In this document: one piece after another, positions 11,696 through 45,790 of the stretch
How positions within the stretch are numbered: the stretch's first letter is position 1
How the letters are laid out: each line of letters starts with the position of its first letter
From: Owenia fusiformis
Taxonomy: Eukaryota > Annelida > Polychaeta > Sabellida > Oweniidae
Direction of reading: 5' to 3'
Length of the DNA: 64,000 nt
NCBI GenBank assembly: GCA_903813345.2
Contig: CAIIXF020000005.1
Span: 38,815,375-38,879,374 of the forward strand
Made by a program: the position numbers and the translations under genes
Notes under the pieces: generated by a model
Told to the model about the DNA's origin: nothing
What the model saw: only the letters and a program-made list of their open reading frames with translations
Database searches by the model: none

Positions 11696-14600
11696 ATGGC
11701 AGAGTCAAATGGTAGGCTCAACATCGACAAACCTCTATGGGACCAATCCACATTCATAGGGAGAGTCAAGCATTTCTTCTGGGTGACAGATCCACGTACA
11801 ATTTTTACTAGTGACAAAAAGCTTGATGCTGCAAGAGACCTTGTGGAGCAATATAGGTAAACATTAAAACAACACCATTCTTGATCTCAGGTATCGTTTT
11901 CCATCTTTTACGGTTGGTCATTGCAACCAATGAGCTGACAGTCCCTTTCAAAGTTTCTGCAAAGTATATTAATCTTGGTGAAAAATATGGATTTTTACAG
12001 TTTTGTGAAGTCCAAAGGGTTCACTTTTGACAACTTTGGCCCAAAATAACTTGAAAAGTGCTCAGAATGGTGAAAAACTGCATGATTTTGAAAGAACTTT
12101 TGGCCAGGGGGGTGTTCGCTTGTTGTTTCGACTTTAGTTTGCTCATGGTTTTGAATGTTAAATATAATGTAATGGTTTTAATAATGAATGTTACTCATGC
12201 TTGATTATTAATTATTAAGTTTACAATTAATAAAAAATGGACACTATACTTAAAAGTACTTATTTTGTACATCGAATATCTTCAAGTAAGATCATATGGT
12301 TTTGGGATTTTTTGGGTCTACTTTTCTAATGACAGATTACTCAGTTTGCTTTTCTTGTTGGGTTTCTTTAAAGTTTTTAGTTACCCTTCCCTTTGGCATT
12401 TGCGCTTATATATTCCTGTCTATCCTGTCAAATAGCCCCATTCTTTGTGATGTACAATTAAAATACAAATAAAATAAAGTTATAGTATTAAAATGGGGTT
12501 CCCTTTACAGACGTGGTGAGGAACCTCCTGGTGTAAGCCGTGAAGAAATAGTTTACGCCAAAAAACTATTCGAATCTGCATTCCATCCGGATTCTGGCGA
12601 GCGACAGAATGTGATTGGTCGAATGTCATTCCAAGTTCCAGGGGGTATGGCAATTACTGGAGCCATGTTGCAGTGGTATAAGTAAGTAGTCCCATATATC
12701 AAACTAAATTCTACAAATGATTATAATAATCACTTTCATTTGCTGTGTAGTCTTATTAAATAGGTTGAAACTTATGATGAAAATAATGAAACAGAAGTTA
12801 TAGAAATGTTTGGAACATTTCTATAACTTTGTAATTTAGTGCAAACATATTTACAGGCCTTTTATGACAATCATTAATCTTAAATGTTTCAATGTTTACA
12901 AAGATCGAAAATGTGAATTATATCGCTCAGTAGTTCCATCTAGTTGACAAATCAAATACTGATAATTTTATGCACGATGGATAAAGCAGTTCTGCTTGAA
13001 ATCCAAATCTTGTTACGTCAAAATTGGAGGGATTTATTTATTAACTGAATTGGCACAGTTGCATCTTGTCAAATACTGTTCTCAATATTCTCAAATAACC
13101 TTTTCATCCCACCATTCAGTATCACTACATGTACAGTGTATATACGGATTAGCCATGGTGACCTAAGACAATGTGATTAAGGATAGTAAGCAACAAAACA
13201 ACATCAAAATGTTTTTTTATTTTTGTCTTTAGAAAACATTTATTTACAGTTAAAATTCATATACATACATTGATACAAGAATTGGCTATATAATTAATAC
13301 TGTGGGTTATCATACGAAGTGAATACACATTTTGATTATACTATGATTGTAAGCCTCTAGGATTGTAACTAAAATTGTAAAATATCATAGACTTGTTAGA
13401 TATTCCGTAGTATACAATAGTGGTATATTGGGTTGTTCTGTTTCTCTTTTCTCATTTTTCATAATTTCGGGTTCTCTTGCAAAAAACCATGCAGATTGAA
13501 AATGATTATTCACTATCTCGGACACCTTTGTCTTTGTCCAACACATAGTTAAACTTCCAAAGTTGCCCAAAGGACCAATTATCCTGCATAAAGACTGGAA
13601 AAGGAATGTAGCGTAAATCCAACTAACACTCATCACTAACATTAAAAAGATACCTAGTCTTTTGTAGACTAATATCCGTCCTGGCATAACTGCTGCACCT
13701 GCGATAAATGTTGTAAATGCTGCCATAGCAACAGCTGAACCAATCATATGGAATGAATCCGTGACTCTGGTTATTCTATTGGTTCCTTGTGAGAAGCGAT
13801 ATGCCACTCCATAATGTATTGTGAAATCAATTGAGAATCCTACCGAAAGAAATATAATGCTTGATTCTAAAATGTTCAGTTCCCAACCAAGAAGAACCAA
13901 TACACCTACTGTTGCTGCTATACCAAATGTGATTGCTACAATAGCGTACAGAGTGATAAACACATTGAGTGAGGTCAGAAGCATAACAATGAAAGCAACA
14001 CCGATGGCTATACCCATTGTGGTGTAAGTCCCTGATGCAATAGAACTTTGTAAACTGTAAAAATCAAAAAATCCAGCAAGCCAGCCATTATTTAAACCTT
14101 TTGGGGCAGTTGCAATTTCATTTTTTACAAATTTGTCAGCTTCTGTGAACAGTTTATCCATTTGATCAAAAGCATTTACAAATGGTTGATTAGTCTGGAC
14201 ACTTAAGTAATAAACAGGCGCATGATTTGAGCTGTCAAAATAAGGCTGTCCAACATTTTTTGTTGTAAACTTCCAGAGCCTAGGTAAACAATATTTGAAT
14301 ATTGTAGAATTTACAGGGAATCTATGGCCACAGCATTTTGGAACAGCACCTGGGACGGAACAATCCATTGCAATCATTTCTTCCATAATTTCAATGCTAC
14401 ATTTTGCAGTTTTTGCGAATGATTCTTCGATGAAGTTTTGTTTCAATAAGTTTTTACAAAACTTGATCATCCACTGTCGAGATTCTGGAGAGTAAAGGTT
14501 GAATGTGGAATCTAGCTGTAAAGTACCTTTGTCATCTGGATCTAACCAGTTACCATTATCACTTGCCTGGATACCCCAATATATGTATACCTTCTGTCCT

Positions 14601-17600
14601 CCAACCCCCTGTTGAGCATTCTCAAAATCAAAGTTTGATTTTATCTCAAGATCATACTTCTCAAGGGGATGTGAACTTGGGAGAATTTGGATGTTTGGCG
14701 ATGTTGGTAGCGTTAATCTGGGAGTGACGAATATCAGAATTATGCCGCTGATCCCAATAACACTGAGTAAAATACACCAGATGAACCAGGTCTTAATGAC
14801 AATCATTGGAATCAGTTTTGTAAAAACCTGAGAGGAAATATGCTGCATCCAAGCCAGGAGTTTCTCCCAACACTTACAGATTTTCACCCCCGACAACAAT
14901 CCCTGGTCCATTTTTTCAACAATTATGAAAATTGCAGGCATCCATGTTACCATAAAGATGAAATTCACCAGAATGCAAGTTCCAGCAAAAATTGCGAAGC
15001 AGCGTGTTGCAATTATGTTACTTGAGAAATTGGCTAAAAATGCAGCTGCAGTCGTGAAACTCGTATTAAAGATAGATGACGCTGCATGTTTTAGTGTCTT
15101 ATGAATGAGCAATTTTAAGTGAGAATTACTAAGCTTTAGGACTGGTTTCTCAGATACATGCACATGTATGTCCACACCATTGTACTTTGCTGTTGAGTTG
15201 TTTGCCAAGTGTGCAAAGCCATTTTCTATCACATTATTTTGATCTGTCTTAGTCTTGTGTTTACCTCCAAACTTCTCATCATCAGTCAATTTCTTTTTCA
15301 TTTCATGCCATATATCAAAATATACAAAGACGTCATCAGCTCCAATGGCTATCAGGATCAGGGCCGCAAAAATGTTGAGAAATGGAAAAAATTGGAATGG
15401 AAAAATGACAAAGTAAAGAAAGTAAGCCATGATGAATGAGAATCCAACATTAAGGATAGTTGCTAGCAATATCAGAGTAGATCTTAGGTAAAGGAACATT
15501 ACAAGTAATATTAATGCAAAAGCTACTCCAAACAGCATCATATCAATCACTAGGTAGTTAGCAAATAGATCATTTTTGACTCCCTGAATATATAGACCAA
15601 CAACTTGCACGCCATCTATCTCAAAGTCTTGCCCATCAAAATATGTCTTGTAAAAGTCAAGGTTCTCTGGATAAAATGTATGTGTAATCAAGTTTGTATA
15701 TTCAAGGATGCTATAACCATTGCCAGCTTGGAAGTTTTTGTCTACCAGATAATGGAATATTTGATAGACTGCATTGTTTTTGTTGCATTCGCTCGGAGCA
15801 TTACATTGATCTTTGTTACAATTTGCATTGAGTTGTTTGGTTTTGTAAAAAGGTGCACAGGTCGATAATAATTTTCTCATCTGGGCGATTGTAGAATTTG
15901 TGAACTTGTTGCATGGTGTGTTGAATAGCTGCTCCATATAGCTTGGTACAGAGTGGTGTGTCTTTGTGATATAAGCCGGGTGTTTAGCTAATGTCTTATG
16001 GATCTTGCAGATGGCTTGTAAAGCTTCCTTTGTGAAGAGGTCCCCACCATTTGTAGACTCCAGAGAAACTATTATTGGACCTGAAATATTCACACATAAT
16101 ATTTATTGAGATAATTTAGATAATATGGTTGTTTCAGAGCATAAAGATATAATACAATTATACCAAAGGTACCAAAAATAAAAATTTATATTTGGTTTAG
16201 GATTAAAAGGTTTAAAGATATCTATATTAAAGATATAGATAATTTGGATGGTTGTTTCAGAGCATACAGATATCTCAAATATAATTATACTCAAGGTGAA
16301 CATTGGAGTAAACACTAAATTGCTTTCTCTATAGAAATCCAATGCAGTGCAAATACAAAATTGACCATTGAATGACTTTTTTAAGATTAGCTTGCTATTT
16401 ACTTTTTCTTCTTCCCAAAACATAATTATAACTAATGTTTGATGGTTTTCAACAAGTGCATCAGTATATTGAGTATTTACCCTTGTCCTTTATGTACTGA
16501 TAAAATATCAAATGGTACATCTACATCTAATTTAATCTAATACATCTAATTTTTGAAAAACTTATATATCAGCCCATGTTATTTTCTGGTATAAATAATT
16601 TAAATTATGAAGATATGGATGTAATTACTTAGTTATTTTCAAGAAAGCATAAATTAGCACCAATAACTAATGAACTAGGTAATATATTCAATATATTTTA
16701 TTTGGGGTTTTCCTCATTATGGTGGAACAGACCTGAATCAAACATTGGGTTACAATTATATTCAAATGCTATTTCCCCCAATTTTTGTCCAATTTGTTTG
16801 AAAGAGGGAGCGAACCTCAACAATACAATACTGTATATCACTTACATTCATAACCTCCATCTTTTGGGAAACATTTGAACTGCAGATCCGTGACATCCCT
16901 CCTTTTCTGTTTTGAACCTTCATCCTGATTCACACCATTGAAGCTTGGATAGTAGCTATAACCAGTATGGGTACCTGGTACCTTTTTGTCTAACACTGTA
17001 CCAAGCCATTGATCTAAGCCATTGGAGTTCAGATGATAGCTAAAAGTAATTGAGCTATTGGGGTTTTGATAATAGCTATGTATATCTGAGTCATTTGATT
17101 TTGGGTAATAGCTATATGTTTCTGGTACATTAGTATCCAATACAGCAACTGCTTGTAGTCTCTTACTGAGAGCCGTGCCTCTGACCTCAAACCCCTGAAA
17201 ATATATTCTAAAGTTATTATACTGGCCTGTACTGTTTCCAAGAAGACAGTCTTTATATAATGCAATCTGCTATTTTTGATATACAACGAGGGCTGTCTAT
17301 GTCTTTATTAATGTTCAGTGAAAATTAAGTTCAAAATCATTAGTTTCATGAATTTACTTATACATATGAATCACACTAAGGTGTTCTCACATTGAGAAAT
17401 ATTTCTAACTTCTTCATCTAGGTGAAAAATCTTTGTAGAATGTGACAGATATAAGTGTTCGTTTGTGATTGATTGATGTCCATTAGAGACAAATACTGTG
17501 TCTGGTCTAATTCAACCCCCTTTGACATTGATTAAAAGTGTTCAGACTGACTGTTGTTCATATTTCAAGGATCTTTATCATGATCTAGTCTATGGTACAT

Positions 17601-20600
17601 AAAGAAATTAGAAAAAAGTGTTCACATTGAGAGGTATTCAGACTATAGAGGTGTTTGGATATACAGGTTTTACGGTATTTAATTGTTTTAGACATTCCCA
17701 TATACCATATACCGGTATTTGTTTGTATGGGCCTGTAAAACATACATTGCACTTCCATATTTAGATAATTTTATAATTGTGTATAAATGTGATTATAATC
17801 ACAAAACAGTCCTACCGAGGAGTTTATCCATTTACACAGATTCTTTTACTGGATTCTATTTTGAGGATACATTATCATCATTTTACTTTTTGAGGAACTT
17901 CCCACACTTTTGTTTATTATGACAACATGTATATCCTGTATCCCGTCCTTTGTTTTCAAATAAGTGTCTTAGTGTTTATAATAGAATAGCAATTAATTGA
18001 GCTCAATTGTTTTGGTTTTGATGACCTTTGAACTCTACTTCTATTTTTGCAATACAGCTATCAAATGCATTTGAATAATAAAAATTTTAGGAATAAAATT
18101 GAAGTGGTTCATCATGCCAAATAATGTTACCAATAAAATTGAATTTCCTCCATAGAAGCACTTTTGATCCTAATTGGAAACTATTTCCTGTTTAGTTCAC
18201 CCTTCATTCAAGGGTTTCACTTCCTTCTCTAATAGCACTGAAGTCCTATCTTGAATGATTGAGATTTTTTGGCTCTTAAAATCATTTTTGACACAACTCA
18301 GAATTTCATCACATTATTACTGAATAGCTTCAAAACCTCATTAATGCTTTTTATTGATATACATATAATAAATATGTACATTAAACAAGGTAATTTATAA
18401 TAAATATGTACATTAAACAAGGTAATTTATAATAAATATGTACATTAAACAAGGTAATTTATAATAAATATGTACATTAAACAAGGTAATTTATAATAAA
18501 TATGTACATTAAACAAGGTAATTTATGTTGTGTGAAGAGGTAATCAGGCAGAACAAACTACAATATCAAAAAGAAACTAAAACTCTAAAAAACCTTACCT
18601 TGGCTGGATCTTCAAAGTTTGGTAAACCATGTAAATTGAGGACAAGTGTCCCACATATAGTCACGGACACTAAGACACCGATCACCACAAGCCAGTAGAA
18701 CCTGACAAGGAAACTAGAATACCTGAAATAAAGAACAAAATCATTAATTGTGAATCCACTTGTTAAGATTTTTTATTGGTGGGAAATGAGTTGATTATAA
18801 GAGGTTCTTATCATGAGCTTTCTGTATATAGGGCACATGTTTCTATTGAAAAGTAGAACTTCATTCATGTCATTCTCCAAACAGGGGGCTCTGGATCTCA
18901 TAGTCCTGCAGTTGGAGGATAGATTCATGGTTATAAAAAAGCAGTTTGAAGTTCAGATATATTAATTTTTCAGACTATGATCTATCCATTCTTCCCATTC
19001 ATACCAAATTATCGAGGGAGCCAGACTAGATGAGGTTAACCTTGTGCACATGATACAAATTCATTGAACAGTTATATATCCCAAATTTTAATGTTCAGTA
19101 ATACCTGTATTATTAGGGAATATATCTCTCTAGTGTTTATTATCCCAGCGAACAAAGTTCGGAGGGATATAGGGAACGCCTCCGTCCGTCCGTCCGGGCA
19201 ATAGCTCAAATACCGTTGGCCCGATTTTGTTCATATTTTGTACACATATACCCTATGGGGGTAGAAGTTCTGCTCTAAAGCCTATTTTCATAATGGCCAC
19301 TCATTTAAAAATGGCGGCCATTTTAGTGCCGATTTTACAGTAATTTAGGTGCAATATGTATATTAAAGAAGCACATGGCAGCCATCTTGAAAAATGGCGG
19401 CCTTTACTCGTTATTTTACGATTTTTACTATAACTCAAGAAGAAGTGGAGCGATTTTGTTCATATTTGGCACACTGTCTAATGACACTTTTGGTAGAAGT
19501 TTTTAACGTATTTTACTGTAACTCGAAAAGTAGTGGAGCGATTTTTTCATATTTGGTATGTGAATGACATAAGCATGGCACACTGTCTAATGACACTTTT
19601 GTTAGAAGGTGGCCATTTTGAAAAATGGCCGCCATTTTAACGTATTTTACTATAACTCGAAAAGTGGTGGAGCGATTTTGTTCAAATTTGGTATGTGAAT
19701 ACTATAAGCATGGTACACTGTCTAATGACACTTTTGATAGAAGGTGGCCATTTTGAAAAATGGCCGCCATTTAAATGTCTTTTACTATAACTCGAAAAGT
19801 AGTGGAGCGATTTTGTTCATATTTGGTATGTGAATACTATAAAGAAAAATCATATTACTCCTTCTGATGACAACTTGGCTAGTGAGCAACCATTTTGAAA
19901 ATGGTGGCCTTTCTTATGTGTATTATTTTATGATATTCGCTATATTTCGTTTGTAAAAATGCCAGCCATTCTGTTCGATGGGATTCGCTACGCTTTGGCG
20001 TTGCCGTTGTTCTGGTTTTTTTGTGTTTAACCTCTTGAATCCCAGGCTCTAAAATTGGCATGAAACCAGAGAATTTTTCATTTTTTGCCACCTTTTGACA
20101 TTTTATTACATACCTATACAACTTTAGATGCTCAGCTTAGTAAAATTAGATGGCAGAGATCATTTCTACACGTTTTAAAACAATTTTTTTGTAAATTGGA
20201 TGAAAATTGTTCAAATGAGAGCAATTTTTGTGAAAAATTTTGTGACGGATTTTCTCGTCCCTCTGGGCACCAGTCTTATTTCATTTGTGACGGATATATC
20301 CGTCACTCTGGGTATTTAAGAGGTTAAGTTAAGTTTATTGTGTTTAGTGAAGACCACTTCAAGACACATTTACATTGACTTCTTATGTTATAAAATCCCC
20401 TCTCTGTATATCGTGGACACCTGCCGACAGTGAATACTATTTGTGGCTTCATAGGTGTTCACTATATCGTGGACACCTGCCGACAGTGAACACTATTTAT
20501 GGCTTCATATGTGTTCACTATATAGTGGACACCTGCCTACAGTGAACACTATTTGTGGCTTCATAGGTGTTCACTATATAGTGGACACCTGCCTACAGTG

Positions 20601-23600
20601 AACACTATTTGTGGCTTCATAGGTGTTCACTATATAGTGGACACCTGCCTACAGTGAACACTATTTGTGGCTTCATAGGTGTTCACTATATCGTGGTTAC
20701 CTGCCTACAGTGAACACTATTTATGGCTTCATATGTGTTCACTATATAGTGGACACCTGCCTACAGTGAACACTATTTGAGGCTTCATATGTGTTCACTA
20801 TATAGTGGACACCTGCCTACAGTGAACACTATTTATGGCTTCATAGGTGTTCACTATATAGTGGACACCTGCCTACAGTGAACACTATTTGTGGCTTCAT
20901 AGGTGTTCACTATATAGTGGACACCTGCCTACAGTGAACACTATTTATGGCTTCATATGTGTTCACTATATAGTGGACACCTGCCTACAGTGAACACTAT
21001 TTGTGGCTTCATAGGTGTTCACTATATAGTGGACACCTGCCTACAGTGAACACTATTTGTGGCTTCATAGGTGTTCACTATATAGTGGACACCTGCCTAC
21101 AGTGAACACTATTTGAGGCTTCATAGGTGTTCACTATATAGTGGACACCTGCCTACAGTGAACACTATTTGTGGCTTCATAGGTGTTCACTATATACGGT
21201 ACAGGTTTTACTCTATTCATAATATTCCCACCAAATGATAATGCATGTTGATTATTATTTTGTGCATTACAAACTTGCTTGTTGATCATTTACTCAGCTG
21301 AAATGATTATATGATTGTGCTTTCATTTACTTTGCCTTGTATCATAGCTATGATGATATTTTCGCTTATCGCTCTGTTATCGATAAAGCTCTTTGATACA
21401 ATTAAACTAATATATTTTACCGTTACAATTGGAATGACAGTTTTAAATATAGCATCCATGTATCTGCTTATTCCACTGCTTCTAGTCTTAAGAATATACT
21501 CACTATGTCACAGGAAAGTTAACCCAAGGTTTTTGCTAGCCTTAATATGCATTACTTTGATATTTTTAAGTGTTCCTGGATTAAGCGGCACTTATCTGCA
21601 ACCTAATATCAATCAGCTCAAGCTTACATTATCAAATGATGTACATCCTCACCCAGGGCCAGTCCCATATAAAGGTAACTTAAACATTTTATTCTCCAAT
21701 ATAAATAGTATTGGAGCCGATGCGGGTACTCGATTTGAATCCCTGAATGACCTAGTTAAGGAAATGAATGTATCAATTGTGGGACTTTGTGAGACTGGAA
21801 ATTTGACCACTATATCAATCAAAGATAATTTCTTGCTGAATGGATTTCATAATCCATTACACAATCAAAATAATCGAGGACTTTTGATCTATATAAACAA
21901 CAACATTTTATGTAACGAAAGACCCGACTTGAATACAAATTACTCCCTGTGGGCCGAACTGAGAATTAAACATAAAACCTTTTTGTATGGAGTTTTTTAT
22001 CGCTCACCCTCACAGTCAGTAAATGAGAGAGATGAATTTATGAAACTTTTGACAATGAACATAAAACAGGCAAAATCACGAAATGCAGATGGAATCATTT
22101 TGAATGGTGACTTCAACGCTAAATGTAAACAGTGGTTTCTCAATGGGGATGAAGATAGAAATGGAAAAATTTTAAATGATATATTTTTTGATAACGATTT
22201 TGACCAGTTAATAAAAGAACCAACAAGAATCACACCAACATCTGCTACTTGCATTGATCTCACAGTCACTAATGTCCCAGGTCTTATAAATTCTTCGACT
22301 GTAATTGAACCTATAGGCTCATCAGACCATTGTTCAATTTTTACTCAACTCGATGTACTATTAAATAGAGAGGAAGATCAATTTAAACTTATTTGGAAAT
22401 ATGATACTGCAAATAAAGATGCTTTGAACCTTGAAATTGAAAAAATAAACTGGGCTAATTTTTTTACTCAAAACCATGATATGAACACTTTAAATGATCA
22501 ATTTACTGATACAATTCTTACCATCTTTAAAAAGCATATCCCTCACAAAATGAAAAGAATTAAAGCGAATGATCGACCTTGGTTCAATGAGAGTATATCT
22601 CATGCGATTCAGAAAAAGAAAAAACTCTATGTTAAATTCAAGAAAAGCAATCTTCCTGAACATTATATAGCATATAAGAATCAGACTGAAGCTGTCAAGA
22701 ACCTTATTTTAGAAACCAAAGCAAAATTTACATCAGATCAAATAGAAAGTCTAAATGGAGAAACACATGCAAGTGACAAATTTTGGCAACTTATAAAAAA
22801 GTTTTTAGGTAAAAAATTTAGCTCGCCTATTCCTACCATAGAAAACCCTTTAACTGGAACTACCTGTTTGACCAGTCAGGAGAAAGCTACTGAATTTCAA
22901 AAATATTTCTCTAACATGTATCACTTAGAACCAGATGCATTGAATAATGATATTCATTTTCCTGACAGATGCAATAACAAATTAGAGAACATTGACTTTG
23001 ACCAACAGGAAATTATCTCTATAATTAAGGATCTTGACCCCTCAAAAGCAAATGGTCCAGATGGAGTTACAATAAAAATGCTCCAGCTATGCAGGAATAC
23101 TATTTCTGTGCCACTTAATTTACTTTTTCATAAAATTTTGACCACAGGTAATTTTCCCCAGAACTGGAAATTAGGGGATATCTGCCCAATATTTAAAAAG
23201 AATAATAAGAATGACATAAGAAATTATAGACCTATATCTCTTCTCAGTATTACTTCCAAAATATTAGAGCGAATTGTCTACTCTAAGATGTACGAACATT
23301 TAATTGAAAATAACTTATTGTATAAATACCAGTCCGGTTTTTTGAAAGGGCACAGCAATGAGTTACAACTGTTAGCCATCCAAAACCTAATTTGGCGCAA
23401 TTTTAGCGACGGCAATGATACACGTGCAATTTTTTTGGATATTTCGGCCGCGTTTGACCGTGTCCCCCATTACCTTCTTCTAAAAAAGTTGAAAGCGTAT
23501 GGATTTTCAGGAAACTTATTAGTTTTTCTAAAATCTTATTTGACTGATAGGAGTGTCAAAGTAACCGTGAATGGCAAATGTTCTGACACCTCTCCTAGCA

Positions 23601-26600: not shown

Positions 26601-29600
26601 AAACAGACTGAACCAGACTAATAAAAGTAAAATAAAATATCTTTTCAAGTAGGATGTATTCTGACAGTTGTATAAGCAGAGACATGAAATGAAAACTTGT
26701 GAATTATACATATTTGGACTTAACATAACATACCAGCATATGTATCTGTATAAAGGATGCAATCTTAAAACTGTTTACAAGACCATTAACTGTCAATAAT
26801 GAAAATTGAGTAGGGGAGGGGGGGGGGGTATTTAAATACTTGCATTGGTGGCCTCTGATCGAAACTTTGTGGATAATTTTGTGACAGGTGAAAATGATGA
26901 TTTATTGTTAATTTGATTCAAAACAATTGTGTAAGAAAAAATTAAACTTGATCAAGTGCAAGCACACCTATATGACATCATTGTCCTCGTTGCAATTTCA
27001 TAAACTCATGGCTTTACTCAAGTACAATAGTACTCGACTCCATACACTTGTTGGTGTATATTTGATTAAATATGGTTGTTTTAACAAGCTATGAGTTTTC
27101 TTCTTTTTGCCAATTGCTCTATTTAAAATAGTGTATCCTATAGAACTATTTATTTTTGTTTTTTATATTTTATTCAAGGTTATAAACTGAAAAAATCTAA
27201 AAATAACAAATAAGTTTAACAGGATGTATTTTAAAGTTCCTTATTCAACCCCAATATACTGTATACTGTTTGCTTGTTTATCAAATTCATTATATACTTG
27301 TATGATATTAAAAGTGCAGTGTTCGCAGTATCCCTTCATATTTCTACATTAGGATGTGAATTCATGTTTATTTCTCAATATCATACTGTACCAAGTACCA
27401 AATTCTGACTCTTATATTAAAACTGTTGATTTGTTCATTTTGGACAGGTATTTTGAAATGAATGGTCCTATAAAAGGCCCTATATCATGCAGTTTTTCCC
27501 TATTCTGTGAACTTTTCAATTGATTTTGGTAAAAGTGAGCCCCCTTTGGTAAAAACTGGTTACAGGCCTGTACACTTTCCATGCATCCATTAAGAACTGA
27601 TATTCCAGGTTGGGAAGTATTAAATCGTGACAATTGGCCCATTCAAAGGGAATCAAAGCTGCAATGGAAATTGTTAAATCTTGATTTAAAGTCATTTTGA
27701 AACTCTCTTGTTCATGTGTACATACTACACAGTCATGTTTACTTTTGATAAACTTGTACATTTTTTCTTATTCTTATAATTTATCACTTATTCTACATTT
27801 TACCAATCTTATACCCCTATATACCATTGCTGACAATGCAAATGTTTTAATCGTTAAATATTTCTATGTAATTGTCAATTATGTTTTAAAATTTCTTAGT
27901 TGATTTACAAAGTACTTCTTCCCAAGGATTTGAAAATTGCAATTAAAATATCAAACAAAAGTAAATACTTGGAGCATTTATAGGCTCATGTTTCTACTAT
28001 ACATTTGTTCAATTAATATTTATTTTCATTGAATGTAAATTGAATGCCTGGGCAGAAAGGGCAGGGAATGTAGTATACAGAAAATCCTCTATATCAGATC
28101 AACTCTCTTATCTGGACACCTCTCAACCTGAACACTTTCTCCAGTCCCTTTTTTAATATCACAGAGATTTCCTTATAAAAATAACTTTGAAATGACAATA
28201 TCTGCCACTGTGAACACTTTTGGCTGGCCACTGTGAGTGGTGTCCCATATACTCTGATTAAATGTTTTAAAATTGAGGATTATTTTGGTGTCACAGTATT
28301 ACAATTTTTGGGGTAATTATGTCACTACCTAAAAGTGGTGACATTTTAATAACTTTATTTATTTGTAACCAATATTCAGCATCGACAATCAGTTGCTGCA
28401 ACAATTGTTACTGTTTTCTGACCATTTGCCTATTTTCATTGCATTTTAAAATTATTTTATGTAATATGCAAGTATTTCGGAAAATCAATGATTAACTCTA
28501 TTTAAAAAGTAATAAAGTTAAGTTTTAGCAAAGGATGCATGAGCACTTACCATAAAGTCATATTCATCTCTTCCTCCGTTGACGTCCTGATATTTTTCTC
28601 TGAGTAATTTTCTGAGATACAAAATTGGCTTAATTAGTTTAATGAAATTATCAATTTTAAATACTTTCCATTTATATTTCTTCTTTGCTAAATGTACCTA
28701 GTGACATTTTGGATCTCCCTATGTTCCGTCTGGGTCAAACTACCAATGCAGAATATAATTATATCAATTCTAGATTCCTAGAATTTTTGGTTCAGGCCCC
28801 CATAGTTTTCCTTGGCAAAGATAATGCCTGTCAGCTTAAAATTAGGTACAGTGTAGGATGATTTTGGTACAGTTCACACTTAAAGGTCGTGTAATCCAAG
28901 ATGCATGATATTCTCTAGTACAGTATGGATACATTAATCACGCGAACCTGTCTTTTTATAAGCCCCTGGTTTTAAACATAATTTAAATTTAACAGTACAC
29001 TGATTTCGCTGTAGTGCTGTATTTATCTATTCAAATTTTTGTGTCAACATAACTTCGCCATTCATTCTTTCACATTTGTCCCTTGCTTGGTGAAACTTGA
29101 AAGGTTATAATGCATTGGTATCTGATGATCCATATGCATTCACCCCATAATATCCTTTAAGGTGAGACACGTTCCGTCATTCTACCTTCCCCAAAAACTA
29201 CTGATAATTTTCTGATTAAATTTGCACAGTATATTCATTCAGTTGGTGTGCATAGTACTGCATACACAATGAAAAGTTTTAAGTGAGAAGAATTAAAGTA
29301 GCTGTGTTATATTAAGGAGGTTAGCTGCATGTTTTAAATAGAAATCATGCATGCATGTTTGAAATAAGACCACCAGGGATTACTATGCTCCTCTCAATAA
29401 GATTTTAGGGCCCTAATTACTATTTTCCTTGAACCTTTATACTTATTTAGGCAATAGGAAAACTAATCCCCCCCCCGAGGACCATTGAGTATGTATATGT
29501 CACATACAACTTAAAAACATGTAGCTTGACCACATGTAAATAACTCTCTTTAATTTGATTTCTATGATTTACCTTCCTTCTGAACTACTCTTAACCTTGA

Positions 29601-32600
29601 AATTGGAAGTAAAACTAATAGGTTTTCAGAAGATATTTCAATGGATTTCATATGACATTTAAGATAATATATTTCCATAATTTATTTACTGTTGTCAATT
29701 GAAAACTCAATATAGTATATAACTTGTTTTTCATATACACTGTACACTGTAGATTGACCAGGTCCTTCCTTAAATAGCATAGAGTTCAATTTCATAACCC
29801 TTAACAGTAACAACTTGTTTTTCATATACACTGTAGAATGACATGGTCCTACCTTAAATATCATTGAGTTCAATTTCATAACCTTTTCTGATTTGTATCA
29901 ACCTTTTCAGGTACATTTGTCTTTATTTTAACAGCTCATTTTGGCAACACTCACATTTTGAGGACATTTATTGTGTTTATTTCTAATAAATAATGTTGTA
30001 GGCAACCTGCATGAAAGCATTCTCCAAGAGAATCAATTTATCTCAATTATGCCATTTATCTCTGCGGCTGGTAAATCCAATGTCTAAACTCTTACATTCT
30101 TAAGCATATTGAGTGAATTAATGTAGTTTTGCATTTTCGCAAAAAAAAGTTTAAAGCAAAAGTTTTGGAAATGTTGTCTTAACATTTAATAGCAACTTTT
30201 TGATTTTTAACTATGGATTTTACTTTAATGTAAATAACCACATAAAATTTTCACAATATTAACTGTTTCATTACTGACTAAAATCATGAAATTTATTTTA
30301 GATGTACCATTAGATTCATTGCCCTTTCAGTTTGGAGTAAAGCTTTACTCTGCAATGTTGCAGTAATCCATTATTGCATTGAGTTAAGGATGTCTGTTAT
30401 CTTCCAGGACCAACACTGCTGTGATATTCTGGCAATGGGTCAACCAGTCTTTCAATGCGCTTGTTAACTATACCAATAGAAATGCTGCCTCTGATATAAC
30501 AGCACAGTAAGTAGGCATATATATGGGATACACTTTACTTGAACATCTATGGCTTGCTCTATCTAGAAAAGTTAAAATAGATGTAGGCTATTTTCATGCA
30601 TTCATTTTTCATGAATATTTAGTTTTTTTCAAACAAAGTTTAATGATCCTTGGCCCAACGTAATTTTTTATTCCAAAAATAACTTTGTTTTATATTAATT
30701 TTGATTTGTTTGCATTTAGACAGATAGGATTGGCATATGTCACAGCCACTACTAGTGCCGTGGTTACTGCAATAGGTCTCAAGAAGTTTTTGGCAAAGGT
30801 AAAAGGCTTTAATTCTGGTTGAGTTCATTTTGTGTAACATCCTTTTGCTTATAGTGTATCTGGGCAGTTCATTTAATTGAATCACATGCTATTTGAATGA
30901 ACATAAATACATGTATCTGTATTCCTATACTGTACACCTCTTTTGTCCTGTAATATTGAATAGTGATACATTGTTTGTATATTATTGATATCTCCTTTGT
31001 TTTTCTATTGCCATCTTTTTTGTTACTTTACCAAGATATTGTGATTTATAAATTTCATCCTCATCTTGCATTTTTGTTGGCTATATATCTATTTGCAAAA
31101 TAAATTTTGTGGGGCTGAAATTTTATTATGTTGATGTCATGTCTAGATTTGCATCTTTGTTTGAGTATATCTACCTTCTTTGTCTGAGTATACTACCTCC
31201 TTTGTTTGAGTATACCTACCTCCTTTGTTTAGTTTATCTACCTCCTTTGCTTGAGTATAGTAACCTCCTTTGTTTGAGTTTACCTATCTCCTTTGTCTGA
31301 GTATACCTACCTCCTTTGTTTAGTTTATCTACCTCCTTTGCTTGAGTATAGTAACCTCCTTTGTTTGAGTTTACCTATCTCCTTTGTTTGGGTATACCTC
31401 CCTCCCTTGTTTGGGTATACCTACCTCCCTTGTTTGAGTATACCTACCTCCCTTGTTTGAGTATACCCAACTCCCTTGTTTGGGTATACCTACCTCCCTT
31501 GTTTGAGTTTACCTACCTCCTTTGTTTGAGTATGCCTACCTCCCTTGTTTGAGTATACCTACCTCCTTTGTTTGAGTATACCTCCCTCCTTTGTTTGAGT
31601 ACACCTCCCTCCTTTGTTCGAGTATACCTACCTCCCTTGTTTGAGTATACCTACCTCCTTTGTTTGAGTATACCTACCTCCCTTATTTGAGTATACCTAC
31701 CTCCCTTGTTTGAGTATACCTACCTCCCTTGTTTGAGTATACCTCCCTCCATTGTTTAAGTATACCTACCTCCATTGTTTGAGTATACCTACCTCCTTTG
31801 TTTGAGTACACCTACCTTCTTTGTTTGAGTATACCTCCCTCTTGTTTGAGTATACCTACCTCCCTTGTTTGAGTATACCTACCTCCTTTGTTTGAGTATA
31901 CCTACCTCCCTTGTTTGAGTATACCTACCTCCTTTGTTTGAGTATACCTACCTCCTTTGTTTGAGTATACCTACCTCTTTTGTTTTTGTTTTATAGAGGG
32001 CTGGTCCCTTTGCTCAAAGGTTTGTACCATTTGCTGCTGTGGCAGCTGCCAACTGTGTCAATGTCCCCCTAATGAGACAGAGGTAAGTCTTTTTGAAATA
32101 TTCAAATTTTGCCACATTCTAAATATTAAAGGGTGACGCATATCGTTTAGCAAATCGAACGCTCATTTCTAGTGTTTCACACCATTATAAAAGCCCCAAT
32201 CCCGGAATAATACTCAAGGGTTCACATGCTCGAGGTCGTTGTGTACCTCTAACTGTTATATAGCATAAGTACGTATATTATAGATTGTCACACATTTATA
32301 GAAGGGAGATTTTTATTTTGACAAATCAATTTCACATTTATGGGTGAAGTTTCAGCATCTTCTATTTGTGTACGAGGGGTGATCAATAAGTAATGGACGC
32401 TTTTTTACACAGATACTTTTTATTGACCAATCCCTTTGATTTTCCTACCAGTGATACATCATTCAATTATCTATCAATTCTGAAGATTTGAAGACAAAAT
32501 ATACAATACATGTTGATATATCCTTATTTCCATGAAGGATGTACAGGTACCCCGGGACCGACATTTACGTCACATATTCAGTTTTTAGCCAGTTTGGTAT

Positions 32601-35600
32601 ATTTCAGTTAGATTTGAACATTTTATATGCAACAAGTGTTGTGTTGTTTAAAATTTTTTGCTGACTGGTAACACATAAACAGAAAATATTGTAATGTCAG
32701 AGTGTTGTATGGAAGGGGTTTGCAGGTCAATTCGAGAAAGCATTCAGTGGAAGAAAGGGGTGGTGAGAGAAGGGAACACCCTACTCCATATGGACAATGC
32801 ACCTGCCCACAGATCTCAAAATGTTCAGAAAACAATATCCCTGGACCTCAAAATTGAGCCCTTGGCCAATGCACCATATTGTCCAGATCTGCTCACATGT
32901 GACTTGTTTATTTCTATACTACTTATTTCTATAGAGAAATGACGCAGGTTTATTGACATTGATGAAATAAAACAACCCGTGCAACTGCATCTTGCTACCA
33001 TGTCAGAGTATGGATTCAGCCTTGTCTCACAATCTTGAGTGAAGAGGATGAGGAATTGTGTACATGTAGCACTTGATGGAAACTATTTAGAGGGCCCTGT
33101 GGAATGAATGTGGCATGAATACCACATAGTGATGATTAAATATTCAAAATTATTATATTATTAGTATGGCATAACAAAATGGGGTAATTCATGACCATAA
33201 TGGTTTGTTTTGTTCAGCCTGCATTCAACTGCATTGCATGTTAAACAATCTAAAATAGCTTCAGAATATGTGACGTAAATGTCGGTCCCGGGGTACCTGT
33301 ACCTCCTTCACGGAAATAAAGATATATCAACATGTAATATATATATTGTCTTTAAATCTTCGGAGTTGATAGATAATTGAATGATGTATCACTGGTAAGA
33401 AAATCGAAGGGATTGGTCTATAAAAAGTATCTGTGTAAAAAAGCGTCCATTACTTATTGATCACCCCTCGTATAATAAGGAAAAGTTGACATCTAAATTG
33501 CCTCATAACGCATTAGTACACAGCTTAGCATATGAAATATCCTCCGAATGAAACAAAGCAGTTCTAATACAAGGATTTATATTGGGTTTTTTTTATACGG
33601 GAAGCTTATCGGAACCCTTTAATTACCATGGGCACCATTTTGGTAAAAGTCATAACTTTCGATTTGGTTTCATGATACTGTTCATCCCAAAAATTATAAT
33701 AGGTTTCTCGAAATCATAAATTGCAGTTTACACTCTGGGTGTTAAAGCCTCTTTAGGATGATTGCTGGGGGAGGGGGGTAGAGAGTAGAGGCCTTATCTC
33801 CCTATATCTTACTCAAATCTGTGTGCATGCTTTAATCATGCTTTTCCCACCTCCATTCTCCTCAAGAGTATGTTGCTTTTATTTTTCTATATATCAATTT
33901 TAATTTTACTAAGAGATTATGCTTGCCCCATATCCCTATTGTATTTTGCTAAATCTACCCCAACTCAAAGCTACTATTTATGTTTTTCTCTCAATTTCTC
34001 ACCTCCCTATCTCCAAGTAAGATACTTTATTTAGTACAGCTTGAAGCCGTACAAATACAGATGGCCAAAATACTGGCTGGATATGGATTATGGAGATGTT
34101 ATTTTTAAGTAAACAATGGAACTCTTAAAAAAAGAGGACAAAACTGTTCCTTGATATCATTATCCACACCATGGACATTATCCACACCATGGACATTATC
34201 CACACCATGGACATTATCCGCACCATGGACATTATCTGCACCATGGACATTATCCGCACCATGGACATTATCCGCACCATGGACATTTTCTGCACCATAG
34301 ACATTATCCGCACCATGGACATTATCCACACCATGGACATTATCCACACCATGGACATTATCCACACCATGGACATTATCCCAACAATTGAAGAGATCAG
34401 ACTTCCAAATTACACATCATCTTTGCGATTGTCACCACCACTGGATTGGAAATTTAATTCTTGATGCAATGATGATTGTATATTTGTATGTAAAATCTTC
34501 TATTGCAGTGAAATCACAAATGGTATTATGACCACTGATGAGGATGAAAATGAAGTTGTGCCTTCAAAGTATGCAGCAGGGAAGGGTATAGGACAAGTTG
34601 TCTTTTCAAGAATAACCATGGCAGCTCCAGGAATGTGTAAGTAAATGGGAGTGGGCTTATTTAAAGAGGCACTGTGCCATAGGAGAGAACAATCAAGACC
34701 CCTTGGCCTTTTGTTTATTTGTCATTATGGTCACGCAACCAAAGGAATTCTGTAAATGGCAGTTCTGGAAATTTGAAAAGAAATTAAAAACCCACTCTGA
34801 ATTTGATTGGCAGCCTAGATTCAAGTCATATGACTCTTTTGCATGTTGAGTAGTACAACATTTTCACTTATCAACTTACCAATGAAGAAGTCCTAAATCC
34901 TCTGCTTCCAGTGCTAATTTTGTGATTGTACAATAAGACTGATCAGATAAGTCCTATTTTTGATGAAAATTTAAGGAGATTTGTTTATTTCACCATCGAG
35001 GGAGATTTTTATTTATTTTATTTGTGGAAAGACTTTAATTTAAGTAGTTCTTGTATTCAAATTCCCAGGATTTACAAATATTATAAATCTTAAAGGGTTA
35101 TGTATCTATCTAACCCGACTAAAACTATGACTGCCATCTATTTATCTATCTGCGCTACAATTTATCTTTCTTGTACCTAATCTTTTTGTAGTTTTTCAGT
35201 GGGAGTTATGTTTTGTTTCAAGAAACTTCATCTTGAAAACATATCAGCTTAACCTCTCTTATTCACACAATGTCTTTGTTGCCATTAAACATTTTGCCAT
35301 GATCTGTTTTAGTAATAACTCCCATCATAATGAACAGGATTGAACCAATGAAGTTCATGCAGCGAATCAAGCCACTTCATGGACCCATACAGATTATGGT
35401 AGTTGGATGTTTGTAAGTATATGCTTTGTACTTGAACTTGTATGGCTTACTCTAAATATCAAGATATTAAATTAAAGAACAAAAATATATAAACATGAAG
35501 GAGTTGATTTGGCTAAAGATGCAATACAGACAAAGAGGTGTAAAATATATAGAATGCGAAAATTTGGAAATCAGGAATATCCCCCTAAAAAGGAAATTTA

Positions 35601-37856
35601 AGTGTCTAGAATTTAACAAAAATGGAACATAAAGGCAAAACCACTTATGCCTTATCCCCAAACTCTTGCCCCCATCTAGCCCACAAGTCATGCTTATGAT
35701 TGTTCCACCTAAAACCAAGGGCGTTACAATACCCGGGAATTTATCGGTTCGTGCAGTACTTGTTTGTGATAGCGCCCTCTGTAGGTCACTGTGCTTATAG
35801 CCTACAGTAATACGGGGTAGGATATCGGGAATTCGGTCAGTTTCTATCCGTCGATTTCGCTATGAATTGAAGCAAGTGTGACCACTTTATCCACTTAAAC
35901 AATTTGATAATTGATTAAATCTTTAAACAAAATCGATAAACACGTTATACACTTCCTATCTCCTTAGAAATTAGCATGTATTTATGGATTGTGTTTTCGA
36001 ACAAGGCTCGACCCATACCAATAGGGAAATCCTTATGCTAATTAGTATGACGTCATATTTTCCTGGGGAATCCTAGATTTCAAAGCCTCAGTCTGTTATT
36101 GTGTCAAATGTAAACGCTCTTTTGCAGACAGAAAATTGACAGATTAGCTTTTAACTTTCAGCTTTGATGTTTAAATATTCTGTATTTCTACCGGACTTCT
36201 TGCTGAATATCATATAATGTTATAACTTGATTTGGACAATTGCCTGATTGATCATTCTGAAATTTTGATTGTGATTCATGATTGATTGGCAAGAAAAATA
36301 ATTCCTATTGTTTTCCAGCGAAGTCAAAATGTTACAGCATGAGTTATAATGTCGAGTTTGCATCATGTTAAATTCTGCTAGTGATTAGAAGTCCATGCAC
36401 AAGCATACACATAAGAGACAAACACACCCAGGCTCCAGGCCGTGGATGGAAATATAAAACTATTTAAGGCACAAACTGGTATTAATAGACCGATATGTAG
36501 TGTCTGCCATGTATTGAAGGTAAACCAATCTGCATTATTAATGTTTCTACTATCAATACATGGATTGTGCAATAGAAAAGCAATGGCACAATCAAAAATG
36601 TGCATATCAATCGTGAATATCTCTCGGTTCAAAGCTTATTTCCAACAGAATCGTGTCAAAATATGTGTCTGAGTAACAGTTATACATTATAAGATCGCAA
36701 ACTCTTACCAATTATCAGCCGAATGGCTCATTTTCAACGAAATGTCCTTAAGACAACAGCCCTGGGTCGCGCCTGAGACCAAAAACTACTTCAAATAGCC
36801 CTCCCCTAATTATATTGGATAATCACATTTATGCGTGCGCGCGCAGCTCATCCACTGAACGAAACGCCACTTCCCGCTGAAATCACCGGGTATTGATCTT
36901 TCCCTTGCTAAAACTGGTAATGAACCTTCTTTATTCTTAATTTGCCCCACCTTTATACATTTGCCTCACCTATTTGAATTTGCCTCACCTATTTAGATTT
37001 GCCTCAACCCTTTGATTTTGCCTCTCCTATTCGAATAAGCCTCACCTATTCATTTTGCCTCACCTAATTTTATATCCTGATTATGCCTCTGAACATATTT
37101 ACATTGCGTTGTTTGTTTTCCAGTCTGATCTTCATGACACCCACAGCATGTGCAATCTTCCCACAAAGATGGTAAGTGAAAGCACAAATATAAAACATGT
37201 CATTTTGTTACATGCATTTTAAGATGCACCATTGTCCAGAATGTCAGGTAATGTCAAAGAAAATTAAAACTTATTTTGATCAGGAATTTATAAAATCACA
37301 TTTTAAATGTATTTTTGCATGTTCAATAAGATGTCAATTTGACACAAGTTTGAATATTTGATGATGTAAAACAAGGAAAATAATTAGTACAGTTCAGTTT
37401 TGTAACCTCTCTTGCTTGGTACAGTAAAACTGGTGTAGGTGAAACATCTTTGGTACAACAAATAGTGTTAAACTTGGGAGGCATTCCTATTAATTGGTGC
37501 CTGGGCTTTTAAAGGCCCTATATTTCCACTTGAAAATATAGAGGGGGCATTCGATTTGTTATGGTATGGTATAGCATGATAAGGAAAGGTATAGTGTGAT
37601 AGGGGGCTCTAATGTAGAGTTGAACCATACACAGCTTGGTTCAACATAGGATGTATGGTACAGTGTTGTTAGCTTGCAGTTCATTTTTATATTGGTTTAA
37701 TTCAGTTCCTAATTTTAAAAAAAACATGTTTCTATTTTTTGCAGCCAAATCTCAAGTGAGAAACTGAAAGTATTGGACAAAGAAAAACTAGAAGAAATAC
37801 AGCAGAAGTTTGGAGAAAAAGTGCCAAAAACACTGTATTTTAACAAAGGCCTTTAA
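11696..37856 (+). CDS. SFXN2: sideroflexin-2 (SFXN2), nine coding exons, complete
   Basis: The exons are 11696-11856, 12511-12681, 30408-30506, 30720-30798, 31997-32082, 34509-34636, 35313-35412, 37124-37171 and 37745-37856. All have GT/AG borders and compatible phases, for 984 nt or 327 aa. Sideroflexins are multipass inner-mitochondrial-membrane transporters. SFXN1/3 carry serine into mitochondria for one-carbon metabolism, and SFXN2 is linked to iron and heme homeostasis. Seen here are [14 protein letters not shown] near the N-terminus, [82 protein letters not shown] and the C-terminal YFNKGL. RVKHFF, RMSFQ.PGGM.ITG and the run to NYTNRNA match vertebrate SFXN2 better than SFXN1/3. Intron 2 is about 17.7 kb and contains an antisense Dispatched gene and a LINE. 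Intron 5 contains a mariner and intron 7 a possible TIR element. The start at 11696 is the one shared with homologs. Confidence 0.95.
13385..18722 (-). CDS. Dispatched-family 12-TM RND protein, nested in SFXN2 intron 2
   Basis: Minus-strand exons are 18722-18599, 17194-16846 and 16080-13385 (stop TGA). The phases join, with a further N-terminal exon likely at 28611-28551, giving about 1061 aa. Dispatched proteins are sterol-sensing-domain RND transporters that release lipid-modified Hedgehog from producing cells. Exon 1 holds TM1 ([20 protein letters not shown]) and NFEDPAK. Exon 2 opens [13 protein letters not shown], the Dispatched-type signature after TM1. In the large exon are the sterol-sensing TM block, the GADD motif (about residues 410-413, [15 protein letters not shown]), [18 protein letters not shown] in the second extracellular domain, and [19 protein letters not shown] (about 909-926) in the second TM block. 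The GADD acids that act in proton/cation coupling are present. The C-terminal tail is short. The first extracellular loop has a Y/N-rich repeat and a KQKRR dibasic site. It is shorter than vertebrate DISP1-3 (about 1400-1500 aa); which paralog it matches is undecided. Confidence 0.88.
18367..18526. repeat. 32-bp tandem repeat, five near-identical copies
   Basis: The unit begins AATAAATATGTACATTAAAC and ends AAGGTAATTTAT. Five copies follow one another with essentially no differences, about 70 bp from the Dispatched exon at 18599. The high identity suggests recent expansion. Confidence 0.95.
19140..19860. repeat. dispersed element with internal ~125-140 bp repeats
   Basis: It opens CAGCGAACAAAGTTCGGAGG, followed by CTCCGTCCGTCCGTCCGG. 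Next come about four divergent tandem units with AGTGGAGCGATTTTGTTCAT, TTTGGTATGTGAATACTATA, CACTGTCTAATGACACTTTT and paired AAAATGGC/GCCATTTT words. It is noncoding and looks like a non-autonomous element with a variable internal repeat. Confidence 0.75.
20405..21196. repeat. 56-bp minisatellite, about 14 copies
   Basis: The unit contains GGTGTTCACTATATAGTGGA, then CACCTGCCTACAGTGAACAC and TATTTGTGGCTTCATA. Each unit centres on a near-perfect palindrome around CACTATATAGTG. The first two copies carry the variants GCCGACAG and TATCGTGG. The array ends about 110 bp before the LINE. Confidence 0.95.
21306..25156 (+). mobile_element. LINE (non-LTR retrotransposon) insertion with 11-bp target duplication
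   Basis: The identical 11-mer ATTATATGATT is at 21306-21316 and 25146-25156 and brackets the element (21317-25145). The 3' end carries AATAAATATG, GATGAT and a short A run, as expected for target-primed reverse transcription. One open frame fills the insert. No upstream ORF1 is present, so the copy is either 5'-truncated to its second ORF or of a single-ORF family. It lies in an intron of the nested Dispatched gene, antisense to it and in the sense direction of SFXN2. Confidence 0.92.
21311..24895 (+). CDS. LINE ORF2: endonuclease-reverse transcriptase
   Basis: This is a single uninterrupted frame of 1194 codons. Residues 1-105 are strongly hydrophobic, with several possible membrane segments, followed by NDVHPHPGP at about 109-117. 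Next is an APE-type endonuclease: [11 protein letters not shown], then [19 protein letters not shown] and the terminal SSDHCSIF at about 336. The reverse transcriptase includes [52 protein letters not shown] and the catalytic YADD at about 799. A C-terminal CxC…H…C finger ([17 protein letters not shown]) closes the protein. The catalytic residues look intact and there are no stops or frameshifts, so the copy is probably young. The first ATG (21311) lies in the target duplication; the first ATG inside the element is at 21353. The domain set suggests a Jockey/CR1-like group; the exact clade is uncertain. Confidence 0.93.
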   Translation: MIVLSFTLPCIIAMMIFSLIALLSIKLFDTIKLIYFTVTIGMTVLNIASMYLLIPLLLVLRIYSLCHRKVNPRFLLALICITLIFLSVPGLSGTYLQPNINQLKLTLSNDVHPHPGPVPYKGNLNILFSNINSIGADAGTRFESLNDLVKEMNVSIVGLCETGNLTTISIKDNFLLNGFHNPLHNQNNRGLLIYINNNILCNERPDLNTNYSLWAELRIKHKTFLYGVFYRSPSQSVNERDEFMKLLTMNIKQAKSRNADGIILNGDFNAKCKQWFLNGDEDRNGKILNDIFFDNDFDQLIKEPTRITPTSATCIDLTVTNVPGLINSSTVIEPIGSSDHCSIFTQLDVLLNREEDQFKLIWKYDTANKDALNLEIEKINWANFFTQNHDMNTLNDQFTDTILTIFKKHIPHKMKRIKANDRPWFNESISHAIQKKKKLYVKFKKSNLPEHYIAYKNQTEAVKNLILETKAKFTSDQIESLNGETHASDKFWQLIKKFLGKKFSSPIPTIENPLTGTTCLTSQEKATEFQKYFSNMYHLEPDALNNDIHFPDRCNNKLENIDFDQQEIISIIKDLDPSKANGPDGVTIKMLQLCRNTISVPLNLLFHKILTTGNFPQNWKLGDICPIFKKNNKNDIRNYRPISLLSITSKILERIVYSKMYEHLIENNLLYKYQSGFLKGHSNELQLLAIQNLIWRNFSDGNDTRAIFLDISAAFDRVPHYLLLKKLKAYGFSGNLLVFLKSYLTDRSVKVTVNGKCSDTSPSNYINCSVPQGSILGPLMFLLYINDLPDNLTSECFIYADDTSLFVPTSPNNPQSHIQIQNDLKKIEAWSKQWKLDFKPEKSREMTFSKKNNPIYPPVILNDKQIEKTDIHKHLGFIFDKKLSGSAHINSICAKIQTALNPLKALKGRLKSKQLNILYTAYIQSLFDYCDILYDCAPICDLNRLDSLQYQAGLIVSGALPGSSTSKVLNILNWSTLTERRILHFKTIMYKAVNDLTPIYISDIFRPFINPQARLLRKSRDFTIPIHYPHKSPIYKMMNLWNDPGSVPLEQKLLPTIASFKRTLKLNLFPGVVSTICLKLTRQQELYLNRARVDLILKAQLKAHNWSSVESSNCLCGSPETFPHFFFKCPLKEQQRNKLITDTLGIYGDLLTHFRTQQDKIHFFLFGDPSLTQLEMDNLFSLVANYLIENTTRI
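25157..28550. other. intron of SFXN2 and of the Dispatched gene
   Basis: No exon or element was recognised. The DNA is AT-rich, with a run of G at about 26816-26828 and a twofold ATGGACCAACTT direct repeat at about 26149 and 26287. At 28316-28343 there is a short copy of the family whose end is the inverted repeat ATGTCAC…GTGACAT (see 52385). Confidence 0.5.
28551..28611 (-). other. candidate N-terminal exon of the nested Dispatched gene
   Basis: A 61-nt interval is bordered on the minus strand by acceptor TATCTCAG and strong donor G|GTAAGTGC. It ends in TG, so splicing to 18722 completes a Trp and reads …[19 protein letters not shown], directly before TM1. An aromatic pair just before TM1 is usual in RND proteins. 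There are two in-frame ATG codons. The intervening intron would be 9.8 kb and contain the LINE. The exon could be part of a longer N-terminus. Confidence 0.5.
29715..29885. repeat. twofold direct repeat, ~90 bp
   Basis: AACTTGTTTTTCATATACAC followed by a CTTAAATA and GAGTTCAATTTCATAACC context occurs at about 29720-29800 and again at 29811-29882, with small indels. It is noncoding and lies in SFXN2 intron 2. Confidence 0.7.
31160..31980. repeat. 23-bp minisatellite immediately upstream of SFXN2 exon 5
   Basis: About 35 copies of a pyrimidine-rich unit, CCTTTGTTTGAGTATACCTA plus CCT, end about 15 bp before the 3' splice site at 31996. In effect the array is a giant extended polypyrimidine region. 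The apparent ORFs within it only translate the repeat. Confidence 0.95.
32373..33470. mobile_element. mariner-like element with ~210-bp terminal inverted repeats
   Basis: The ends CGAGGGGTGATCAATAAGTA (32373) and its complement (ending 33470) are flanked by TA on both sides (32371-32372, 33471-33472). The inverted repeat continues for about 210 bp (32373-32583 against 33265-33470), including GGTACCCCGGGACCGACATT near its inner limit. The total of 1098 bp is too short for an intact transposase. It is inserted in SFXN2 intron 5. Confidence 0.92.
32694..32945 (+). pseudogene. C-terminal remnant of mariner transposase
   Basis: The frame reads [18 protein letters not shown], then [20 protein letters not shown], and stops. 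This is the second and third catalytic Asp region of mariner transposases (usual HDNAPAH … PYSPDLAPCD). By eye there are 35 residues between the Asp of HMDN and the Asp of TCD, against the usual 34. The first catalytic block and the DNA-binding domain are missing, so this copy cannot encode an active enzyme. Confidence 0.85.
34163..34380. repeat. 18-bp minisatellite, 12 copies, upstream of SFXN2 exon 6
   Basis: The unit is ACCATGGACATTATCCAC with C/T and A/G variants. Because the period is a multiple of three and every unit contains CCATGG, three long frames open across it on both strands; none is a gene. It ends about 130 bp before the exon 6 acceptor. Confidence 0.95.
35727..36895. mobile_element. 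possible TIR element in SFXN2 intron 7
   Basis: CAATACCCGG at 35727-35736 and its exact complement at 36886-36895 bound 1.17 kb. The next ~15 bases on each side also resemble each other. No transposase was recognised and no clear target duplication was seen. Confidence 0.4.
36937..37075. repeat. ~19-bp pyrimidine-rich repeat upstream of SFXN2 exon 8
   Basis: About six imperfect copies of TTTGCCTCACCTATTTGAA end about 50 bp before the acceptor at 37122-37123. Confidence 0.75.
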
Positions 37857-45535: not shown

Positions 45536-45790
45536 TGGCCAAAGTAATTGTTTGGGTCAGTGATGCTCCAGTCACTTCTGTTGCGGCGGCTAAGCGGTCC
45601 ATAACATCTGTAACATCTACGGCCACAAGTAATCATAGAGCTCCTGGGATTCCCATCGTCACATACTATATGCAATGATATATGGCAACTTGTCAAGGTA
45701 GCTTACATGACGTATTTTGAACTTGTGGAGACAGAAAACTTTCGGTCATCGCACGTCCTTTGTGGAGATCATGATGACGAACAGTCGCCT

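Follow-up and report, generated by a model that had tools for sequence, protein, structure and literature searches.

A Dispatched gene probably nested antisense within a long sideroflexin intron of the annelid Owenia fusiformis, with a LINE in its own intron

Results

A sideroflexin gene with a 17.7 kb intron

The DNA of interest (hereafter, the window) is a stretch of 64,000 bases from the Owenia fusiformis genome, and contains no Ns. Its forward strand carries a gene of nine coding exons at positions 11696–37856 (Table 1). The exons were placed by hand from the sequence and then joined; their lengths (161+171+99+79+86+128+100+48+112 nt) give a coding sequence of 984 nt, or 327 amino acids plus a stop codon. 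All eight introns are of the GT-AG type, the phase fits at every junction, and the reading frame is unbroken. At the junction that spans the second intron, exons 2 and 3 meet as TAT AA/G ACC AAC across positions 12681/30408, encoding LQWYK/TNTAV. The claim of the initial annotation that these two exons encode contiguous protein despite lying 17.7 kb apart thus holds in frame, splice sites, and phase.

Table 1. Positions of the main features in the 64,000-base window.
Feature	Positions	Strand	Description
Sideroflexin coding exon 1	11696–11856	+	ATG at 11696, ends in phase 2; splice model, Pfam PF03820
Sideroflexin exon 2	12511–12681	+	ends ...LQWY+AA; splice model
Sideroflexin intron 2 (host intron of the nest)	12682–30407	+	17,726 nt, GT-AG
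Sideroflexin exon 3	30408–30506	+	begins G+TNTAV; splice model
Sideroflexin exon 4	30720–30798	+	splice model
Sideroflexin exon 5	31997–32082	+	splice model
Sideroflexin exon 6	34509–34636	+	splice model
Sideroflexin exon 7	35313–35412	+	splice model
Sideroflexin exon 8	37124–37171	+	splice model
Sideroflexin exon 9, with stop	37745–37856	+	ends YFNKGL; splice model
Dispatched terminal exon	13385–16080	-	transport motifs (GADD, GFSIDF) and sterol-sensing region; stop codon at 13387–13385
Dispatched exon, first extracellular loop	16846–17194	-	GFEVRGT..., furin-like KQKRR; splice model and chain match
Dispatched TM1 exon	18599–18722	-	...FEDPAK; splice model and Dispatched chain match
Probable first coding exon of Dispatched	28551–28611	-	ATG 28567, donor ATG/GTAAGT; putative linkage
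14-copy 56-bp tandem array	20407–21196	+	upstream of the LINE, outside the insertion
Target-site duplication, 5' copy	21306–21316	+	exact, 11 bp
LINE insertion	21317–25145	+	APE-type endonuclease and RT in one open frame, between target-site duplications; 3,829 nt
Target-site duplication, 3' copy	25146–25156	+	directly behind the A-run

By its sequence, the predicted protein is a sideroflexin—a member of a mitochondrial carrier family—assigned at the level of the family. The Pfam profile SFXNs (PF03820) is matched over positions 1–319 of 319 (E 4.3e-133), and TIGR00798 scores 376 bits against a cut-off of 322.8; in this full-length match to the family, no difference from its known members was seen. 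No solved structure chain matched the product at E up to 1. When the spliced protein was compared with the window by tblastn (E up to 10), every exon was recovered once, and the sole extra match (47229–47312, E 6.6) is at chance level. The idea that the window contains duplicated pieces of a sideroflexin gene was rejected, as tblastn found no convincing second copy of any exon.

A multi-exonic Dispatched gene on the opposite strand

Intron 2 of the sideroflexin gene holds three firm exons, and the stop codon, of a minus-strand gene encoding Dispatched, a transporter that releases Hedgehog signals. The three exons join in frame, and the product is 1,055 amino acids long without its first exon. 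Structure chains of Dispatched-1 match this product at E 5.7e-173, and that of fly Dispatched at E 5.5e-125. Overall, the Dispatched chain matches span E 6e-173 to 4e-122, while the other chains listed (HpnN, NPC1) are at E 3e-6 or weaker. These in-frame joins and chain matches bear out the earlier placement of Dispatched exons at 13385–18722 within the sideroflexin intron. No Dispatched model is among the NCBIfam matches, and the NPC1 and Patched models fall far under their cut-offs. Two other identities were rejected: (i) Patched or NPC1, with the NPC1 chains and both NCBIfam models as weak as just described, and (ii) a processed retrocopy of Dispatched, as the gene has at least three spliced exons. 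The mature coding sequences of the sideroflexin and Dispatched genes would have zero bases in common.

The alignment with Dispatched-1 (PDB 6xe6, 7rph, 7e2g; fly 6tbu) runs from TM1 to the last TM block. The Owenia product and Dispatched-1 share the GADD and GxSxDF motifs, the sterol-sensing region, and a basic, cleavage-type site in the first loop. All three transport aspartates are present, in GADD (residues 410–413, TM4) and GFSIDF (911–916, TM10), and the positions aligned with them in the NNN mutant chain 7e2g are N; in hDisp1-NNN, the three mutated aspartates are given as D572/D573/D1051 (PMC8630017). A simple hydropathy scan of the product gave 11 peaks above threshold, against the 12 TM helices of Dispatched. 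The C-terminal tail is apparently shorter than that of human DISP1, judged by the lengths of chains from constructs that may carry tags.

In the first extracellular loop, the sequence KQKRR (residues 142–146), followed by DVTDLQFKC, is a predicted proprotein-convertase site of the furin type. In mouse Dispatched, the furin cut falls immediately ahead of EVDWNF in the same loop, and the motif is described as conserved in fly, zebrafish, chick, mouse, and human; in fly Dispatched, several motifs had to be removed before cleavage stopped (all from the consulted portions of PMC5811216). Just ahead of the furin-like site, the exon at 16846–17194 encodes repeat-like YSYYP...N units, an insertion by which the Owenia product differs from the known Dispatched chains.

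Downstream of the Dispatched stop codon, AATAAA occurs at 13244, 13221, and 13042, the first two at distances of 141 and 164 nt from it. Judged by its sequence features, the locus looks like that of a working gene.

Candidate first coding exons of Dispatched

Ahead of TM1, the exon that encodes it lacks an in-frame ATG; there is therefore a coding exon upstream. Minus-strand donor sites between 18.76 and 45 kb were scored with a matrix built from the 10 donors of the sideroflexin and Dispatched genes, the donor at 28551 excluded. A score of 6 bits or more was reached by 78 donors, all but one of them (77/78) open in the needed phase; 18 of the 77 candidates were listed for having an in-frame ATG (12 candidates) or an acceptor above 6 bits. 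The donor at 28551 leads both these 18 and the 16 donors of at least 8 bits, with 10.9 bits (next, 10.7). In the exon that it closes, the ATG at 28567 yields MNMTL followed by W over the junction; a second ATG lies at 28561.

The tryptophan is by itself weakly discriminating, because, among the 16 donors that reach 8 bits, four would produce one (36709, 34880, 28551, and 22522). Two of these, 34880 and 22522, have neither an in-frame ATG nor an acceptor above 6 bits. Among the 18 listed candidates, only 28551 and 36709 give Trp-Tyr as at the start of the fly chain (6tbu, residues 9–21: MNWYYHVLARRPY). The fly chain parallels the 28551 start in that a short N-terminus is followed by Trp-Tyr, but it is a construct. 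For human DISP1, an N-terminal domain of ~175 residues is described in the portions of PMC8630017 that we consulted. Since the short N-terminus rests on the fly construct and that of human DISP1 is long, further coding exons may lie upstream, and the acceptor ahead of 28611 (7.8 bits) is plausible. On balance, the exon ending at donor 28551 is likely to be the first coding exon.

The main competing possibility, which we consider doubtful, is that Dispatched exceeds intron 2, either through a first coding exon at ~36.7 kb (donor 36709) or through a promoter or 5' exons past 30408, such that the two genes interleave. Were the donor at 36709 used—it falls in sideroflexin intron 7—Dispatched would span sideroflexin exons 3–7 rather than sit in one intron. 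That start is open in the right phase, includes an ATG, and reads MSHSADNW/Y over the junction; in a comparison with fly Dispatched it does slightly better than the 28551 start (E 4.3e-9 versus 3.3e-8). The acceptor before the 28611 exon and the long N-terminal domain of human DISP1 likewise leave room for an upstream exon. However, the donor at 36709 is the weaker one (8.5 versus 10.9 bits) and sits 18 kb from the TM1 exon, whereas 28551 lies closer and outscores every other donor in the range.

An exon at 28611–28551 would keep the whole Dispatched coding sequence inside sideroflexin intron 2. The initial annotation had described a whole gene nested in the intron, possibly reaching 28611. 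What stands of this is that intron 2 encloses three firm exons and the stop codon, with 28611–28551 as the best-supported first coding exon; its linkage to them is one that we infer, 36709 is a live rival, and a first exon, 5' UTR exons, or promoter could exceed 30408. That the entire gene lies within the intron is hence probable rather than proven, as it depends on the 28611–28551 exon.

A probably recent LINE insertion in the Dispatched intron

A LINE separates the Dispatched TM1 exon from the two candidate first coding exons; it thus occupies the first coding intron of Dispatched with either start (28551 or 36709). The LINE frame (21302–24892, forward strand) runs for nearly 1,200 codons with no stop, and encodes endonuclease (PF14529, PF03372) and reverse transcriptase (RT; PF00078) domains. 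The RT matches LINE-1 ORF2 and R2 chains. In having endonuclease and RT in one frame, an A-rich 3' end, and a short target-site duplication, the element is like APE-type LINE retrotransposons.

The target-site duplication was found as a shared word of 10–14 bases, with three upstream windows tried. The 11-mer has only two copies on the forward strand of the window, and in a first-order simulation such a match arose in 8 of 20,000 trials (a somewhat generous figure, covering only the 131-nt flank with the match). The exactness of the duplication, together with so long an open frame, suggests that the LINE is recent. The third layer is thus probably a chance insertion and not an old part of the arrangement.

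The 5' copy of the duplication (21306–21316) coincides with the very start of the endonuclease–RT frame, and the first ATG of the frame (21311) falls in the duplicated host DNA. No other forward-strand frame of at least 100 amino acids was found between 18.7 and 21.3 kb that could be an ORF1. Some LINE clades have a single ORF, and a missing ORF1 counts only against membership of two-ORF clades. The element thus differs from APE-type LINEs in these two respects, and is probably 5'-truncated. The earlier description of the LINE as intact is apt for the endonuclease–RT frame, which is open, but goes too far for an element with no ORF1 found and a first ATG supplied by host DNA. A 14-copy array of 56-bp units upstream was considered as the LINE 5' UTR and rejected, as it lies outside the target-site duplication.

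The N-terminus of the LINE frame (21314–21661) contains three hydrophobic segments and then, ahead of the endonuclease, a stretch resembling a degenerate 2A-like motif. 2A-like sequences are known in APE-type retrotransposons (reported in PMC4981915, as far as consulted). DVHPHPGP was rejected as a working 2A peptide: HPGP replaces the NPGP core. The string 'HPGP' is absent from the consulted main text of PMC12846837.

Other features of the window

Several further repeats and open frames were observed. In sideroflexin intron 5, positions 32371–33472 contain inverted repeats of 209 nt, 94% complementary and 684 nt apart, and between them a fragment of a DDE_3 transposase that is only weakly matched (E 0.0015, below the cut-off). 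This is a decayed DDE element, which we take to be possibly mariner-like. Tandem arrays lie at 31155–31985 (23 bp x36, stopping 11 bases short of sideroflexin exon 5), 34158–34381 (18 bp x12), and 52749–53708 (about 136/148 bp x5–7). Beyond the sideroflexin gene, a single minus-strand open frame of 565 amino acids (47404–49098) matches the Major Facilitator Superfamily (PF07690, E 7e-14). Its 3' end is overlapped by the second copy of a ~1.1-kb tandem duplication at 45579–47751, in which seven blocks are 88–97% alike at a spacing of 1,068–1,102. A forward-strand open frame of 462 amino acids (44147–45535) has no Pfam match, looks disordered by eye, and is possibly an exon.

Scans of the window with Rfam (gathering threshold) and ARAGORN returned nothing. 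Relatives were also sought in collections of bacterial, archaeal, and viral sequences. Among bacterial and archaeal genome contigs, the pattern matches numbered 4 for Dispatched and 47 for sideroflexin, none confirmed; among viral contigs, they numbered zero for Dispatched and 7 for the LINE, again none confirmed. Finding no relatives in these collections was expected, and says nothing on conservation among animals.

Discussion

This work confirms a nest of three layers on alternating strands, the anatomy of which is as initially annotated: a minus-strand Dispatched gene, with its three firm exons inside one long intron of a forward-strand sideroflexin gene, and a LINE in the Dispatched intron. 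The structures of both genes, their frames, their family membership, and their relative position are all directly visible in the window.

We judge it probable that the two are ordinary nested genes, independently promoted, with Dispatched antisense in intron 2 and the LINE as a later passenger. Each gene would have its own promoter, and both would be expressed. During synthesis of the sideroflexin pre-mRNA, the polymerase would traverse the Dispatched locus, and the 17.7-kb intron would be spliced away along with its antisense copy of Dispatched. The LINE would have arrived later, in the first coding intron of Dispatched, by target-primed reverse transcription that left the 11-bp duplication; it would be a passenger of both introns.

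Arrangements of this kind are well documented. According to the consulted parts of two surveys, nested genes, often antisense, make up about 0.5–9% of genes depending on species and survey (PMC8467205, PMC3786989), with about 6% in D. melanogaster, 2.1% in C. elegans, and 0.5% in human (PMC3786989). The same source describes 2mit, which is nested antisense in timeless2 of Drosophila; as in Owenia, an opposite-strand coding gene sits in a large intron of an unrelated host, the difference being the gene pair involved. Among the matches listed from the open-licence literature, the Dispatched/sideroflexin pair was not found. The long, multi-exonic internal gene makes the nest mildly unusual; it is otherwise a fresh example of a familiar arrangement.

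A further reading, compatible with that of ordinary nested genes but improbable, is that the nest is functional: antisense transcription of the two genes would be regulatory, via polymerase interference or dsRNA. The genes are on opposite strands, and an unspliced sideroflexin pre-mRNA would carry sequence complementary to each of the three firm Dispatched exons. Polymerases may collide, or Dispatched mRNA may pair with a retained sideroflexin intron 2. Nested genes are reported to interfere with each other in Drosophila and human (consulted parts of PMC8467205 and PMC3192792), and for human, intronic L1s and nested genes are linked with intron retention and exonization (PMC3192792). However, apart from orientation the sequence bears no sign of interference or dsRNA, and mammalian nested pairs are described in the portion of PMC8467205 consulted as having no extra expression divergence. 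Somewhat more speculative is that the nest is ancient and conserved in the lineage, kept by regulatory elements or antisense transcription in the 17.7-kb interval that would link the gene for Hedgehog release with that for the mitochondrial carrier. Least credible, and very improbable, is that the nest is a misassembly or two genes, with sideroflexin exons 1–2 and 3–9 from separate loci joined within 18.7–28.5 kb: although this interval contains the 56-bp array and the LINE, both typical sites of misassembly, two half-genes or a chance misjoin are unlikely because the exons fit in phase and protein, add up to one match over the full family profile, and lack any convincing second copy in the window, which is without Ns, while the matching target-site duplications that flank the LINE argue for contiguity of 21.3–25.2 kb.

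As a single case of ordinary nesting, the locus is of value mainly for annotation. Gene finders can easily break a host gene apart at a nested one, and at this locus they have to call two conserved genes from opposite strands, with a LINE lying between exons. Should the nest prove to be conserved among related genomes, it would mark their shared ancestry and would offer a natural way to test whether a developmental gene is constrained by nesting in antisense.
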